Shown: one piece after another, positions 24,475-30,139 of the stretch
Layout of the letters: every line of letters begins with the position of its first letter
Position numbering within the stretch: position 1 is the first letter of the stretch
Made by a program: the position numbers and the translations under genes
Notes under the pieces: generated by a model
Told to the model about the DNA's origin: nothing
What the model saw: only the letters and a program-made list of their open reading frames with translations
The model's database searches: none
Assembly: GCA_023150835.1 (NCBI GenBank)
Contig: JAKLKB010000003.1
Location: 1 to 64,000, forward strand
DNA: 64,000 bases
Direction: 5' to 3'
Source: Myxococcota bacterium
GTDB lineage: Bacteria; Myxococcota_C; UBA6777

Positions 24475-25152
24475 TCACCCGAGATCTTCTTCCTTGACAT
24501 CATACACAACGGGTTGTGCGCGATAATCTTGAAGTTTTTTCATCCCTTTGAGCGTGCGCGCCAGCACTTTTTGCATCACTTGGTAGTTTGGAAGCTGGTG
24601 GCGGCGAAAGAGTGCGTATCCGCTCCACATCAGCTGTGCGCAGATATCCACGGGAACTTGCCCAGTTTGCGCACCAAGCCCGGGGATGGCCACCGAACGG
24701 ATCGGATCTGCGGGGTGTTTGTCGTTGTGGATGTGGATGGCTTGAAACGCCGCAGCGCAAGCCAACGCAACATTGACGGTTCCGCTGATGTCTTGGGCGG
24801 ATTCGTTCATGGTAGGTGTGGAGATCAGATAGCGCGGGATCTCCGCCCCCGTCTCCACACAAGTCGCACAACCCACCGGCAAAAAGCCATCGAATTGTTC
24901 CGCGATCGCGAATTGTACGCGCTCTTGGATGATATCGCCAAAATGCTCCACCAACACCCGATCCAATCCCCCGTCCATCTCGCCATGCGAGTTGGTGGGC
25001 GTCACCCAAGCATCGACCTCTTGCCGCAAGATCGAACCGTGACGGATCTCCAACTCCAACTCATCCAACGTACCCTCTCGCGCCAAAAATACTTCGCGCC
25101 AAGCCTTCATCATCTCTCGGTTGAGATCGATCAACACCACTTTTGTTTTCAC
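24475..25152 (-). CDS. macro-domain protein (ADP-ribose-binding)
   Basis: A 225-residue protein with a macro domain over most of its length: LEIRHGSILRQEVDAWVTPT, then NSHGEMDGGLD (the loop that contacts ADP-ribose), CATCVETGAEIPRYLI, and SVAIPGLGAQTG as the phosphate loop. Macro domains bind ADP-ribose and many remove it from proteins or nucleic acids. GTG at 25152 is chosen because GGGAGG lies six bases upstream. The gene is 76 bases downstream of the PARP gene and on the same strand, so a writer and a reader or eraser of ADP-ribosylation are encoded together. The substrate and whether it hydrolyses the bond cannot be read from sequence. Confidence 0.88.
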   Translation of the reverse strand: MKTKVVLIDLNREMMKAWREVFLAREGTLDELELEIRHGSILRQEVDAWVTPTNSHGEMDGGLDRVLVEHFGDIIQERVQFAIAEQFDGFLPVGCATCVETGAEIPRYLISTPTMNESAQDISGTVNVALACAAAFQAIHIHNDKHPADPIRSVAIPGLGAQTGQVPVDICAQLMWSGYALFRRHQLPNYQVMQKVLARTLKGMKKLQDYRAQPVVYDVKEEDLG

Positions 25153-25228
25153 CGCGAACCTCCCTTCGGATCGGCCTTTCACGCCTCATCCATCCATGTC
25201 CGACACAGCCTCCACCGCACCGAACCGC

Positions 25229-26683
25229 TCAGTACCATACGCGACCACCGCGAAACTCCACAAGATACGCCAGTTTCTGCTGTTTCTCGTCGTATACCAC
25301 AAACTCATCGTCTTCGAATTCCGTCCCGCGAACTCCGTGACAACTATGATACCCCTTCGGTGGAGCCTTGATACCGTACGTGATCTCTTCGTATTGCTTG
25401 ACGTGACCCAGCGCAACTTGGGCGATCGCCATGATCGAAGTTCCTTTTTTTCCCGCCGAAGTATAGCCCGAACTCGTACAAGCAGCGTTCCCAAAATACA
25501 TACCGCTCCCCAACCACCCTTCGTCCGTACGACCCACACCAAGCTTCACCACCACCTTCGGCATCAAGAGACCCCGCGACAAGATCCCCACCCAGTTTTG
25601 GATCCGCGAGCCATGAAAAAGCAGTTGATCGTTTCCGATATCGGCCAGATAACGGGCCTCTTCTTCGGGACGCGACACTTTGTAGATCTGCAAGACTTCG
25701 ATATCGTCCGTATCCACTTGGCTTTCCAATACCAAATCCTTGATCTTTTTGTGCTCGCTGCTTTTCGCCTCGATCGCTTCGACAGAACAGCCCAAAGCGG
25801 CATACTCTTCTTCTTCCTTCGCCTCGTGCAACAAGCCGCTCTCACCGTTGACGCGCAACATATCCTTCATCAATTGCAACGTCTCTTGTTTGGTTTGGTA
25901 GTTGTTTAAATCGCGGATAATCGCGGCTTCAGCAGCTTCACGGCTCCGACCAAAACGGTGCGGGATCACGGTGTAAAAAGCACTTGATAAATCGCGCAAG
26001 GTTTCCGCCACTTTCGGCGTCTGCTTTTTCTTTTGGAGCTGTTTGTAGATATCACCAAGGATCGATTCTCCCTGCTCGATCTGTCCGATGGTGAGGACAC
26101 CAAGAGGCGTCTCGATACCATGCGCGGTCACTTTGGCCTGAACACGCGAAGTCAGCGCTCCCACCGCTTCGTCGTACAGATAACGCACCAAACCACGCAC
26201 GGTCTCCTCCAGTCGCGGCAACGAAACTTTCGGCTCAGCGGGCTTTTCAACCTCGTTCACTTCGATCCGCTGCAAGGTCTTTTCGTCGACCTCGCCGCTG
26301 CTGCTTCCTCGTGCTTTTTGTGAGCCGATCTTGCTGCTCGCCAACGCCACTTCGCGGTAGCCTTTGCGCGCCGAAGTCTTTTCTTTGTAGATCTGATCGT
26401 ACACCGCTTCCGCTTCGGGCTTGCTATCGAGATAACGACACTCTTTCTGCCCGCTGTCTGGATTGTTTTCCAAATCATCTGTGCGGCCATAATGCGTAAA
26501 AACCCGAAACGCTTGACCTTTTTTGATGGCTTTCGCGTGATGCAACTCGATGGCGTAATACTTGTTTCGATTGGTCTTGATATCCGTCACTTGCAACACG
26601 GCCTTCTTGAGGATCTCGAACTCTTCTGGATACTTCGGTTGCCCTGCGTCATCCCACTTCCACGTCACCACTCGAACCGCCAT
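25229..26683 (-). CDS. bacterial PARP: WGR, helical regulatory and ART domains
   Basis: A 484-residue poly(ADP-ribose) polymerase homolog. Residues 1-115 resemble a WGR domain (VFTHYGRTDD, with Tyr in place of Trp). Residues about 165-300 match the PARP helical regulatory domain, including TPLGVLTIGQIEQGESILGD. Residues 330-484 form the catalytic ADP-ribosyltransferase fold with an intact H-Y-E triad: His357 (LLFHGSR), Tyr396 (GSGMYFG) and Glu460 (DDEFVVYDE). The triad with Glu is the signature of PARPs that build polymers. No zinc fingers are present, as in PARP2/3. ATG at 26683 has AAAGGAG upstream. Its partner is the macro-domain gene just downstream. A role in DNA-break response or phage defence is inference. 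Confidence 0.92.
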   Translation of the reverse strand: MAVRVVTWKWDDAGQPKYPEEFEILKKAVLQVTDIKTNRNKYYAIELHHAKAIKKGQAFRVFTHYGRTDDLENNPDSGQKECRYLDSKPEAEAVYDQIYKEKTSARKGYREVALASSKIGSQKARGSSSGEVDEKTLQRIEVNEVEKPAEPKVSLPRLEETVRGLVRYLYDEAVGALTSRVQAKVTAHGIETPLGVLTIGQIEQGESILGDIYKQLQKKKQTPKVAETLRDLSSAFYTVIPHRFGRSREAAEAAIIRDLNNYQTKQETLQLMKDMLRVNGESGLLHEAKEEEEYAALGCSVEAIEAKSSEHKKIKDLVLESQVDTDDIEVLQIYKVSRPEEEARYLADIGNDQLLFHGSRIQNWVGILSRGLLMPKVVVKLGVGRTDEGWLGSGMYFGNAACTSSGYTSAGKKGTSIMAIAQVALGHVKQYEEITYGIKAPPKGYHSCHGVRGTEFEDDEFVVYDEKQQKLAYLVEFRGGRVWY

Positions 26684-26794
26684 CGCCAACTCCTTTCGTT
26701 TCTCAAACACCGACAACGCCCTTCGCTCTGTCGTACGCTTGGCTCTCTTTCTTGACGCATCCTGACACACTCGCGTAAAAAATCAAATCCATAG

Positions 26795-26976: not shown

Positions 26977-27140
26977 ATGACGTCAGCCCCACCAAAAGAA
27001 AAGGTCGATGCAGGCATCTTTTGGCGAATTACCCCTTGCGCTGCTCCGCCAATTTACGCAAGATTCAAACCCACCAAACGCCACTCCGAGAGAACCCAAA
27101 AGTCTACGCAATCCCCTCACTCCAAGCAAAGGAACCCACC

Positions 27141-27920
27141 ATGCAGATATCTTGTCCTAGCTGCAAAAATCCCGTGATGTTCGAAGATATCAATCACAAA
27201 AAACGAATCGCCAAATGCGCTTCTTGTCACGAAGTCTTTCGTTTTTCTGAAGATGACCTCACCACCACAAACTCCTCACACAAAGCCAACGAATTAGACA
27301 CTCCAGACGCCCAAGAAACAAAAGAGGAAAGTCACACAAAAGCCCCTCCAAGATCCGCCGATCCCTCTCAAGAACCCGCATTATTCGCCCTTCCTTCAGG
27401 CGTAACGCTCCAACGCGACGAGCAACAACTGCGCATCCACTGGCGTTGGTATACACCCGTGGCCTATCTCATGGTGTTCATCGGCATCGCTTGGAATGTC
27501 TCCCTGCTCTCGATGATCTGGAAAACATTCAGCGGTGATTTCATTGCTGAAGTCGTTCCGTGTTTTTTTCTTGTCTTTGGTTTCGGCCTAATCTACGCTG
27601 GCATCGTATTCCTCGTCAACGAAACCACGATCAGCGTCCAACACAAAACACTCTCCATCCGCCATACTCCTTTGCCTTGGTCGGGAAATCGTACCTTTTC
27701 TGTTGATGATCTCGAACAATTCTTCTGCAAACAACACATCTGCCGTAAAAAACGCGAAACATCGGTGGGCTACGGACTTTATGCCATCTCACGCAACGGA
27801 AAACAAATCGAGATCCTCAATGGCATCGAAGATCCCGAAAAAGTATGGTTCATCGAGCGAATTCTCGAAGAGCACCTTGGCATCGCCGATCAAAGAGTAT
27901 TCGGCGAATACAAGGGCTAA
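27141..27920 (+). CDS. zinc-ribbon membrane protein, paralog 1
   Basis: A 259-residue protein. The N-terminus is an MJ0042-like zinc ribbon (CPSC at 5-8 and CASC near 29-32, followed by EVFRFSEDD). A polar linker leads to VTLQRDEQQLRIHWRW, two membrane helices (about 108-130 and 140-165), and a C-terminal domain with ISVQHKTLSIRHTPLPW and ERILEEHLGIADQ that looks PH-like. Two close paralogs follow. The function is unknown; the layout suggests a cytoplasmic zinc sensor tethered to the inner membrane. ATG at 27141 is fixed by AAAGGA upstream and by the shared MQISCP start in all copies. Confidence 0.8.
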   Translation: MQISCPSCKNPVMFEDINHKKRIAKCASCHEVFRFSEDDLTTTNSSHKANELDTPDAQETKEESHTKAPPRSADPSQEPALFALPSGVTLQRDEQQLRIHWRWYTPVAYLMVFIGIAWNVSLLSMIWKTFSGDFIAEVVPCFFLVFGFGLIYAGIVFLVNETTISVQHKTLSIRHTPLPWSGNRTFSVDDLEQFFCKQHICRKKRETSVGYGLYAISRNGKQIEILNGIEDPEKVWFIERILEEHLGIADQRVFGEYKG

Positions 27921-28216
27921 TACGAGATCCGCCTGTTGAGTGATCGTAAAAACGTAGGGGCAGCCCCCTGTGGCTGCCCAAGGATAGGGCGTCTGGGCGC
28001 TATCCTTCGAGCACAGATCACTCGGATTTCGTATCAGAGGGTGTTTGCGAAATAGCGATATCTTTTGGACTGGTACACAGAAACATCGGAGGAATGGACG
28101 TCTTGTGATGTCCCCTCTTATACGAAATCCGCCCGTTGAGTTATCGTAAAAATGTAGGGGCAGACAGGTGTGGCTGCCCAACCATCGGGCGGTTCGCGAA
28201 CCGCCCCTACATCATG
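27919..28216. repeat. two R3 elements between paralogs 1 and 2
   Basis: Copy one (27919-28040) opens TACGAGATCCGCCTGTTGAGTG and closes AGATCACTCGGATTTCGTA, so it too has inverted ends, with GTAGGGGCAGCC-GGCTGCCC inside. Copy two (28120-28216) starts TACGAAATCCGCCCGTTGAG and switches into the GGGCGGTTCGCGAACCGCCC hairpin of R1. That makes it a chimera of two repeat families. Confidence 0.85.
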
Positions 28217-28282
28217 CGATCATACATGACGCGGAGATATCGCGTTCAGATCTCGCTATGTTAGACACCCTCTAACCGATAT

Positions 28283-28337
28283 CACGCTCGCATCGCCGAT
28301 CAAAAAGTATTCGGCGAATACAAGCGCCGATCGGCTC
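28283..28337 (+). pseudogene. remnant of a paralog 3' end
   Basis: CATCGCCGATCAAAAAGTAT and the following TCGGCGAATACAAG copy the last 40 bases of paralog 1 almost exactly. They lie 60 bases upstream of paralog 2 with no reading frame before them. It looks like the stump of a further tandem copy lost by recombination or repeat insertion. Confidence 0.75.
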
Positions 28338-28397
28338 GACATCGAAAAAGAAACCCCCAAAGGACGAAGCAACCCACTCCAAGCAAAGGAATCCACC

Positions 28398-29243
28398 ATG
28401 CATCTCTCTTGTCCTAGTTGCAAAAATACCGTGATATCCGAAGATATCAACATCAACAAAATGATCGCCAAATGTGCTTCTTGCCAAGCCGTCTTTCGTT
28501 TTTCCGAAGACGACCTCGCCACCGCAAGCTCCCAACATAACACCAACGACCAAGAAGCCCCCATCAAGGAAGAAAGCACGGGTAGAGAACACAGTACAGA
28601 CTCGAATGACCCATCCCAAAAACGCCCCCAAGAACCCATGGTTGGGTTGTTTTGGTTGTCAGGCTTGATCGACTTATTTCAAAAATACCTCCAAGAGCCC
28701 GCCCAACCCGACGTCCTCGCAGGCGTAACGTTCCAACGTGACGAGCAACACCTGCGCATCCACTGGCGTTGGTTTCGGCCTGCCGCTTACTTCGTGGCGG
28801 GCGTTAGCTTGTTTGTGAACCTTTTCTTGATCTCTTGGATGAGAAACGTTGTGGGGAGTGGTTTGGGGGAAATCCTGTTTTCGTTACCTTTTTGTGTGGC
28901 GGGCGGGGGCCTTATCTTCTTGACCCTCGCTCTCTTCCTCAACGAAACCACCGTGACCGTCCAACACGGAAAACTCTCCATCCGCCACGCCCCGTTGCCT
29001 TGGTGGGGCAATCGCACCCTTCCCATCGAGGATCTCGAACAACTCTTCTGCAAAAAAAATCTCACACACAGCAAAGACGGTAAAACAGGCTTCTACGAAC
29101 TTCACGCCATCTTGCGCAACGGACAACAGATCACTCTACTTCAATACCACGAAGAACCCGAAAAAGTCTTATTCATCGAACAACTTCTCGAAGAACACCT
29201 CGGCATCGTCGATCAACCTGTACTCGGCGAATACAAGGGCTGA
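28398..29243 (+). CDS. zinc-ribbon membrane protein, paralog 2
   Basis: A 281-residue paralog of the protein encoded at 27141. It keeps the zinc ribbon (CPSC, CASC), the QAVFRFSEDD block, VTFQRDEQHLRIHWRW, two membrane helices and the C-terminal PLPWWGNRTLPIEDLEQLF and EQLLEEHLGIVDQ motifs. The linker is about 20 residues longer than in paralog 1. It ends eight bases before the open frame leading to paralog 3. The start is set by AAAGGA nine bases upstream and the conserved MHLSCPSC. Confidence 0.8.
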   Translation: MHLSCPSCKNTVISEDININKMIAKCASCQAVFRFSEDDLATASSQHNTNDQEAPIKEESTGREHSTDSNDPSQKRPQEPMVGLFWLSGLIDLFQKYLQEPAQPDVLAGVTFQRDEQHLRIHWRWFRPAAYFVAGVSLFVNLFLISWMRNVVGSGLGEILFSLPFCVAGGGLIFLTLALFLNETTVTVQHGKLSIRHAPLPWWGNRTLPIEDLEQLFCKKNLTHSKDGKTGFYELHAILRNGQQITLLQYHEEPEKVLFIEQLLEEHLGIVDQPVLGEYKG

Positions 29244-29332
29244 TCGGCTCAATGCCCAGCAGAGACAGTCTAGAACAAACAAAACCCTACATCTCCCGCA
29301 ATTTCCCCTCAATCCAAGCAAAGGAGCCCACC

Positions 29333-30139
29333 ATGCAGATCTTCTGCCCCCACTGCAAAAATCCGATCAATTCTGAAGGCATCAACCTTGACAGGCTGAT
29401 CGCTAAATGTACTTCTTGCCGTGCTGTCTTTCGTTTTTCCGAAGACGAACTCGCCACGACAAGCCCCGAACGCGATGACAACAACCCAAAGCCTACCACG
29501 GCTCAAGACACAGAAGAAAACAGCCTCAGAAAAGGCCCTATCAACCGCCCTCAAAGACGTTCTCCTCGTATCCAAGAGCCGATCCCCCTCGATGTTCCCG
29601 AAGGCATGACGCTGCAACACGACGAACATTCTCTGCGTGTCCGTTGGCGCTGGTTTACGTTTGAAGCGAGCGCTGTCGCGCTTGTTTGCGCGCTCTTCGT
29701 CGGCGCGGCTCTGGCCCTCTACAACGAAACCAAGTCGAGTTACGCGTATGACTCTCTCTGGCCCATTCTGTTCTTAATCCTGTGCTTTCTCGGCGTAAGC
29801 ATGGCCCTTTTGTACTACTCTCTCGCACTTCTCATCAACGCCACCACCCTCACCATCCAAAACGGGCTGTTGTCTATCCAGCACGCCCCTTTGCCTTGGT
29901 GGGGCAACCGCACCCTTCCTGCCGAAGAATTCGAGCAGTTCTACTGCAAACAACGTGTCTCCCGCGGGAAATACCGCCTGTTCTTTACCTACGAACTCCA
30001 CGCCATCTTGCGCAAAAAACAACGAATTAAACTTCTCTCGGGAATAAGTGAGATAGAAAAAGTCTTATTTCTCGAACGACTCATCGAAGATCATCTCGGC
30101 ATTGTCGATCGACCTGTACTCGGTGAATTAGAACCTTGA
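29333..30139 (+). CDS. zinc-ribbon membrane protein, paralog 3
   Basis: A 268-residue third copy with CPHC and CTSC zinc-ribbon pairs, RAVFRFSEDE, MTLQHDEHSLRVRWRW, two membrane helices and the C-terminal APLPWWGNRTLPAEEFEQFY and ERLIEDHLGIVDR. Divergence from paralog 2 is highest in the linker and first membrane helix and lowest in the C-terminal domain. AAAGGAG lies seven bases before the ATG. A fourth copy downstream is broken. Confidence 0.8.
   Translation: MQIFCPHCKNPINSEGINLDRLIAKCTSCRAVFRFSEDELATTSPERDDNNPKPTTAQDTEENSLRKGPINRPQRRSPRIQEPIPLDVPEGMTLQHDEHSLRVRWRWFTFEASAVALVCALFVGAALALYNETKSSYAYDSLWPILFLILCFLGVSMALLYYSLALLINATTLTIQNGLLSIQHAPLPWWGNRTLPAEEFEQFYCKQRVSRGKYRLFFTYELHAILRKKQRIKLLSGISEIEKVLFLERLIEDHLGIVDRPVLGELEP

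Follow-up and report, generated by a model that had tools for sequence, protein, structure and literature searches.

What is a bacterial PARP for, and why would it be encoded beside a macrodomain protein? The question is raised by a 64,000-nucleotide stretch of Myxococcota DNA (positions 1 to 64,000 of contig JAKLKB010000003.1; hereafter, the window), in which a PARP gene (25229-26683) is followed by a macrodomain gene (24475-25152); both genes, and all of their parts given below, lie on the minus strand. Earlier work has portrayed bacterial PARPs as largely of the DNA-repair type (clade 1) and sporadically gained by gene transfer, and clade 5, to which PARP4 belongs, as a unikont invention (PMC4245714). 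Our comparisons assign the window PARP to clade 5, and we consider it probable that the two genes form a dedicated pair of an ADP-ribosylation writer and its macrodomain partner, which would be triggered by nucleic acid and used for defense in some lineages.

The PARP open reading frame (ORF) runs from an ATG at 26683 to a stop codon ending at 25229 and encodes 484 residues; a ribosome-binding site, AAAGGAG, can be read in the sequence at 26690-26696. Its domains follow the WGR-helical-ART order given in the original prediction, with Pfam placing (i) a WGR domain at residues 27-112 (26348-26605; PF05406, E 1.1e-8), as do alignments; (ii) the regulatory helical domain (HD; PARP_reg in Pfam) at residues 158-276 (25856-26212; PF02877, E 7e-17); and (iii) the PARP domain at residues 308-452 (E 5e-29), within the ADP-ribosyltransferase (ART) catalytic domain at 25250-25762. 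The WGR motif itself reads YGR, and a TDDLxxNP insertion is common to the whole clade in our alignments. The catalytic triad, which had also been called intact, aligns at H357 (25613-25615), Y396 (25496-25498), and E460 (25304-25306) with the H-Y-E triads of PARP1, PARP2, and PARP4, and it is preserved in each of the eight bacterial clade members whose sequence was read across it, as well as in both full phage members. Pfam found no BRCT, VIT, vWA, or MVP-interacting domain in the window PARP. An AlphaFold model of the enzyme (predicted local distance difference test score, pLDDT, of 55) was not used. The protein is predicted to catalyze NAD+-dependent, nucleic-acid-stimulated ADP-ribosylation.

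The same domain order had suggested a likeness to PARP2/3. This order, however, does not discriminate clade 1 from clade 5, because human PARP4 carries a cryptic WGR domain ahead of its HD (PMC10450202), and the best structural match, the phylogeny, and a clade-specific insertion all point to PARP4 and rule out assignment to PARP1/2/3. Among solved structures in the PDB, human PARP4 was the best match (E 8e-47), ahead of PARP1 (5e-25) and PARP2 (8e-23), whereas a Paenibacillus PARP gave the reverse order. In maximum-likelihood trees, the window PARP, its bacterial relatives, and human PARP4 formed one group (support of 100/97 and 100/99), and a tree forcing PARP4 together with PARP1/2 was rejected (approximately unbiased test, p 0.002), with human PARP4 being the single eukaryotic PARP4 included and sitting on a long branch. 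As a marker independent of the tree, human PARP4 and every clade member from bacteria or phages share a catalytic H-to-Y spacing of 39 together with an RTDxGxLG motif (a +5 insertion), whereas the other PARPs aligned have spacings of 30-37 and no such motif. Since Pfam recognizes only WGR, PARP_reg, and PARP, the enzyme is to be seen as a member of the catalytic lineage rather than as a vault PARP. We therefore read it as a clade 5 PARP pared down to a minimum, from which the parts for vault targeting are absent.

The macrodomain gene encodes 225 residues when started at the GTG at 25152, which has a GGGAGG ribosome-binding site and a protein start that aligns with relatives starting at ATG; the GTG at 25182, which opens the longest frame (235 residues), appears less likely. 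With the former start, the gap to the PARP gene is exactly the 76 nucleotides claimed originally (25153-25228, including the ribosome-binding site of the macrodomain gene), and no further gene lies between the two. Because the upstream neighbor is divergent and the downstream neighbor, a gene for a PreP-like M16 peptidase, is convergent, the pair forms an isolated two-gene unit. The original sequence observation thus held in each detail that was checked. The protein matches the Pfam macrodomain family (PF01661, E 9e-10), and its AlphaFold model (pLDDT 91) is best matched by yeast YMX7 (1njr), an ADP-ribose-1''-monophosphatase, with a Z score of 18.3 over 186 residues, other macrodomains reaching at most 15.2. 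In the predicted ligand/catalytic loop, PTN54...GGLD64 (24961-24993), Asn54 and Asp64 correspond to Asn80 and Asp90 of YMX7 and are conserved throughout the relatives aligned. Compared with the MacroD-type loop, Asn...GG(V/L)D, the Asn, GG, and Asp stand at the same spacing and the His at +4 is missing; the His/Asp dyad is not universal among MacroD enzymes (PMC7050489). The macrodomain protein likely binds ADP-ribose, and hydrolysis is probable though not certain. In four other loci (L036, L037, L039, and L040), though not in the window, the macrodomain protein ends in a short acidic tail of the DFDDxE type, a possible site of docking or modification.

The conservation of the pair was surveyed in two samples, one of 386 genomes taken for the most part from across the domain and one of 377 Myxococcota genomes; only a few candidate proteins were scored per genome in the large runs, and absences may reflect incompleteness. 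The PARP clade is rare: in the first sample, nothing matched beyond the window's own family and a single distant hit; of the five genomes that the search tool groups into the window's phylum, three had it; and the second sample had it in six of 377 genomes, at 54-59% identity. Its named relatives are the Myxococcota metagenome-assembled genome (MAG) KLAP109 and the Deltaproteobacteria MAG M3003. A contig scan with a PARP4-inclusive alignment, whose patterns were too strict, returned three loci only. The close macrodomain subfamily (best match of at least 198 bits) was confined to the same six Myxococcota genomes, the next best match in the remainder being 112 bits (Fisher p 2.6e-13, uncorrected for relatedness). 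Further, in the window genus and in G004, G126, G237, G401, and G415, the PARP gene is immediately followed by the macrodomain gene on the same strand, which makes six of eight species-level cases with the window genus counted once. As the pairing persists at 46-56% macrodomain identity in the five other species-level genomes, chance is excluded, and as the flanking genes are mostly unshared between lineages, the pair itself is what has been kept. PARP1-like enzymes of the same genomes had no such macrodomain neighbor in the loci read. Of the proposed operon of writer plus reader/eraser, then, the conserved writer-macrodomain unit stands, in that adjacency recurs and co-occurrence in Myxococcota is perfect, and the reader/eraser part is kept as a prediction. 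Two carriers, G126 and G401, hold three PARP types each: one like PARP4, one like PARP1, and a third that branches deeply.

The macrodomain subfamily also occurs with a different transferase. Its closest relatives outside the Myxococcota group, 49-53% identical, are found in actinomycetes, where fusion to an unrelated ART of the arginine type is seen in Streptomyces (L034) and a divergent arrangement with one in Nonomuraea (L035); thus, two ART families have served as partners of the subfamily. The Streptomyces fusion (L034, 4971-7376, on a plasmid of Streptomyces sp. Caat 7-52) is an 801-residue protein with an unassigned middle region between the macrodomain and the ART. A uracil-glycosylase-like stretch seen there by eye was unsupported by Pfam and was dropped.

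A bacterial-type PARG was present in eight of nine carriers of the PARP clade, including the window genome, where it is encoded on the same contig (C70:78702) about 53 kb from the pair; it was not found in the PARP-less relatives G002 and G003. Among Myxococcota, PARG occurred in five of six carriers and in 39 of 361 other genomes (44 of 367 overall; p 1.1e-4). This co-occurrence weakly favors poly-ADP-ribose as the product, the weakness being that large genomes may hold more of everything.

The surroundings of the pair differ between lineages. In G401, G237, and G415, it heads an operon that continues with a HEAT protein, a SWIM zinc-finger protein, a spacer, and a reverse transcriptase (L036, 934-6934; L039, 10175-16138; L040, 1508-7462), in which PADLOC recognized the components of a type XIII retron: HEAT-ARM/WGR_XIII (E <1e-53), SWIM_XIII (E <1e-159; scanned in G401 and G237, the G415 protein being assigned by homology), and RT_XIII (E <1e-154). 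The macrodomain and HEAT genes are 27 nucleotides apart in G237 and G415 and ∼100 nucleotides apart in G401. The spacer between the SWIM and reverse transcriptase genes is bounded by inverted repeats, of 16 perfect base pairs in G237 and of 18 base pairs with one G-U in G401, which are unrelated in sequence, as expected of retron a1/a2 repeats. Because G237 and G415 are near relatives, the three genomes represent two independent lineages. No Rfam model matched the retron loci. As neither Pfam nor profile searches found a hidden WGR domain in the retron HEAT protein, a transfer of its WGR to the PARP is no more than a guess. In the literature searched, we found no paper linking PARPs with retrons. 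Phage defense, which the original prediction had thought plausible, is thus supported by association, and proximity to defense genes holds for these three genomes but not for the window, G004, and G126 copies, where PADLOC scans of the neighbors showed no adjoining retron or defense genes. In the window, no ORF longer than 250 residues carries a Y[AMVIS]DD motif. Evidently, the pair can live either alone or inside a retron.

Phages carry the enzyme as well. In contigs whose viral status was taken from IMG/VR, full-length clade members (52-56% identity) occur in two distinct sequences of 252 kb and 459 kb; an 80-kb contig shows the same 11-kb stretch as the 252-kb one, and all that a 268-kb contig has is two fragments of a member. 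These fragments (L104, 5001-5341) correspond to PARP residues 14-83 and 426-476 and adjoin each other, as though a deletion had removed the middle of the gene. In the 459-kb contig (L095, 4983-10520), a nicotinate phosphoribosyltransferase gene of NAD+ salvage is found 3 kb from the PARP4-type gene, and a weak Ro60-like gene lies near it at 962-2578.

How might such a pair work? In PARP1-3, once the WGR domain has bound DNA ends, the HD becomes looser and the NAD+ site accessible (PMC10450202), and the Herpetosiphon PARP is activated by DNA and makes long chains (PMC4245714). In the reading that we favor, a PARP4-lineage enzyme reduced to its core would sense a nucleic-acid end or an unusual nucleic acid through its WGR domain, relay the signal through the HD to the ART, and move ADP-ribose from NAD+ onto itself or nearby targets. 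The macrodomain protein would bind the product and most likely remove the target-proximal ADP-ribose, and a PARG encoded elsewhere in the genome would trim any chains. A writer acting unchecked would be damaging or wasteful, which would explain why species retain both genes. The pair appears inside a type XIII retron operon in some Myxococcota and is, therefore, most likely the NAD+-using arm of an anti-phage system there. The identities of the two proteins, the triad, the adjacency, the co-occurrence, and the retron linkage can be read from the sequences themselves. Triggering by DNA or RNA, eraser activity, toxicity, and the role in the host we infer from them. The role in defense is likewise suggested by linkage in two lineages and need not extend to the stand-alone window copy.

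Several observations weigh against this reading. The phage contigs carry the PARP, yet no macrodomain gene was found there, and a search of viral contigs for the window's macrodomain subfamily gave nothing; G271 and G310 have the macrodomain gene unlinked to the PARP; defense genes do not adjoin the window copy; and genome size and ancestry may account for part of the co-occurrence. In addition, the third residue of the YMX7 Asn80/Asp90/His145 set, a histidine that matters for activity in yeast, is Ser or Thr in the window subfamily, which is why hydrolysis is not assured. This last substitution, along with the structural match to YMX7, would suit a macrodomain that is no eraser but a reader, or a processor of some small compound derived from ADP-ribose (for example, ADP-ribose-1''-phosphate), and that simply accompanies the PARP; we find this unlikely, however, given the perfect co-occurrence with the PARP clade, the ART fusions of close relatives, and the retention of Asn and Asp. 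If, instead, the PARP marked DNA breaks as PARP1/2/3 do, with PARG and the macrodomain protein resetting the signal and phages playing no part, the WGR-HD-ART order, the accompanying PARG, and the chain-forming, DNA-activated Herpetosiphon enzyme (PMC4245714) would be accounted for. Against this stand the clade 5 placement, the separate PARP1-like enzyme in the carriers G126 and G401, and the lack of any known LexA-type box in the 300 bp upstream of the PARP gene at 11 loci, by which SOS control was rejected; nor was any 9-mer common to four or more of the nine upstream regions compared. Damage signaling of this kind thus seems unlikely.

A broader form of the defense idea, in which the pair would be an abortive anti-phage system in every host, with the PARP as an effector that infection releases or triggers and that depletes NAD+ or modifies essential targets, the macrodomain protein serving as antidote, and the window form acting alike without a retron, is a tentative possibility. 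It draws on the complete type XIII retron operons headed by the pair in three genomes of two lineages, on the large phages that carry the same PARP clade, and on DarTG as a precedent for a writer-macrodomain pair in phage defense (PMC10789625), whereas the copies in the window, G004, and G126 lack neighboring defense genes, the window neighbors look like housekeeping genes, and the pair is present in few genomes and yet not obviously on mobile elements. A bolder reading takes the PARP4-lineage enzyme and its macrodomain antidote as an anti-phage module: WGR would sense the multicopy single-stranded DNA (msDNA) of the retron or nucleic acid of phages, the PARP would consume NAD+ or modify targets under the restraint of the macrodomain protein and PARG, and large phages would have captured the enzyme. 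We regard it as somewhat unlikely. Kinship with PARP4 also raises the prospect of a bacterial vault, as the window genome encodes an MVP homolog (G000:C216; L005, 10-2562; 850 residues; MVP_shoulder E 6e-18). MVP, however, occurs in 47 of the 377 Myxococcota genomes (∼12%), namely in two of six PARP carriers versus 45 of 371 others (p 0.16); it is missing from G237 and G415, although the PARP of each lies on a contig of more than 10 Mb (about a whole genome), and G003 has MVP but no PARP. With the VIT, vWA, and MVP-interacting regions also absent according to Pfam, a vault link was rejected: a working relation between PARP and MVP is unlikely, and a counterpart of the vault PARP4 acting with the MVP of the same genome is highly improbable.

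Elsewhere in the window, positions 27021-30139 encode three tandem paralogs of 281-299 residues with a CPxCK-type, zinc-ribbon-like N terminus and hydrophobic segments, for which no Pfam or PADLOC match was found; promoter and terminator scans of the window stayed at chance level.

If the anti-phage module were real, eukaryotic PARP4 would share ancestry with a bacterial immune effector, and the clade bears on the question of whether bacterial conflict systems were the source of PARP4 or its recipients; the retron XIII operons would tie a PARP4-type enzyme to bacterial immunity. A bacterial and phage clade with the insertion of PARP4 itself offers a minimal, purifiable, and testable PARP4 relative, and the macrodomain partner and retron link make the purpose of bacterial PARPs directly testable.

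Set beside known systems, the window PARP resembles human PARP4 in its HD-ART core (36-38% identity) and in having WGR before HD, but it lacks the BRCT, VIT, vWA, and MVP-interacting domains (484 versus 1724 residues), has no consistent MVP link, and is paired with a macrodomain gene. The bacterial clade 1-like PARPs of Herpetosiphon, Clostridioides (CD160), and Paenibacillus share the WGR-(PARP_reg)-ART order and the H-Y-E triad; those aligned have ∼22-33% core identity and fall on other branches, and the examples read have no adjoining macrodomain partner. PARG is found in the same cell in the two characterized cases (PMC5966428). Yeast YMX7 (YMR087W) is like the window macrodomain in fold, the N-terminal part included, and in the retained Asn and Asp, and differs in sequence (26% identity), in its catalytic His, and in not being a bacterial operon partner. 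In G401, G237, and G415, the genes after the macrodomain match HEAT-ARM_XIII, SWIM_XIII, and RT_XIII of the type XIII retron, to which PARP-macrodomain is an added head; the HEAT protein there shows no WGR, and the window copy adjoins no retron. DarTG itself was rejected as an identity, as the PARP has no PADLOC match and the DarG model scores only 16.3 bits (E 0.0013) on the macrodomain protein. DarTG and SirTM-macrodomain pairs nevertheless offer the same arrangement, an ADP-ribosylation writer encoded with a macrodomain eraser, in which the writer is DarT or a sirtuin instead of a WGR-PARP and the macrodomain is of another class.
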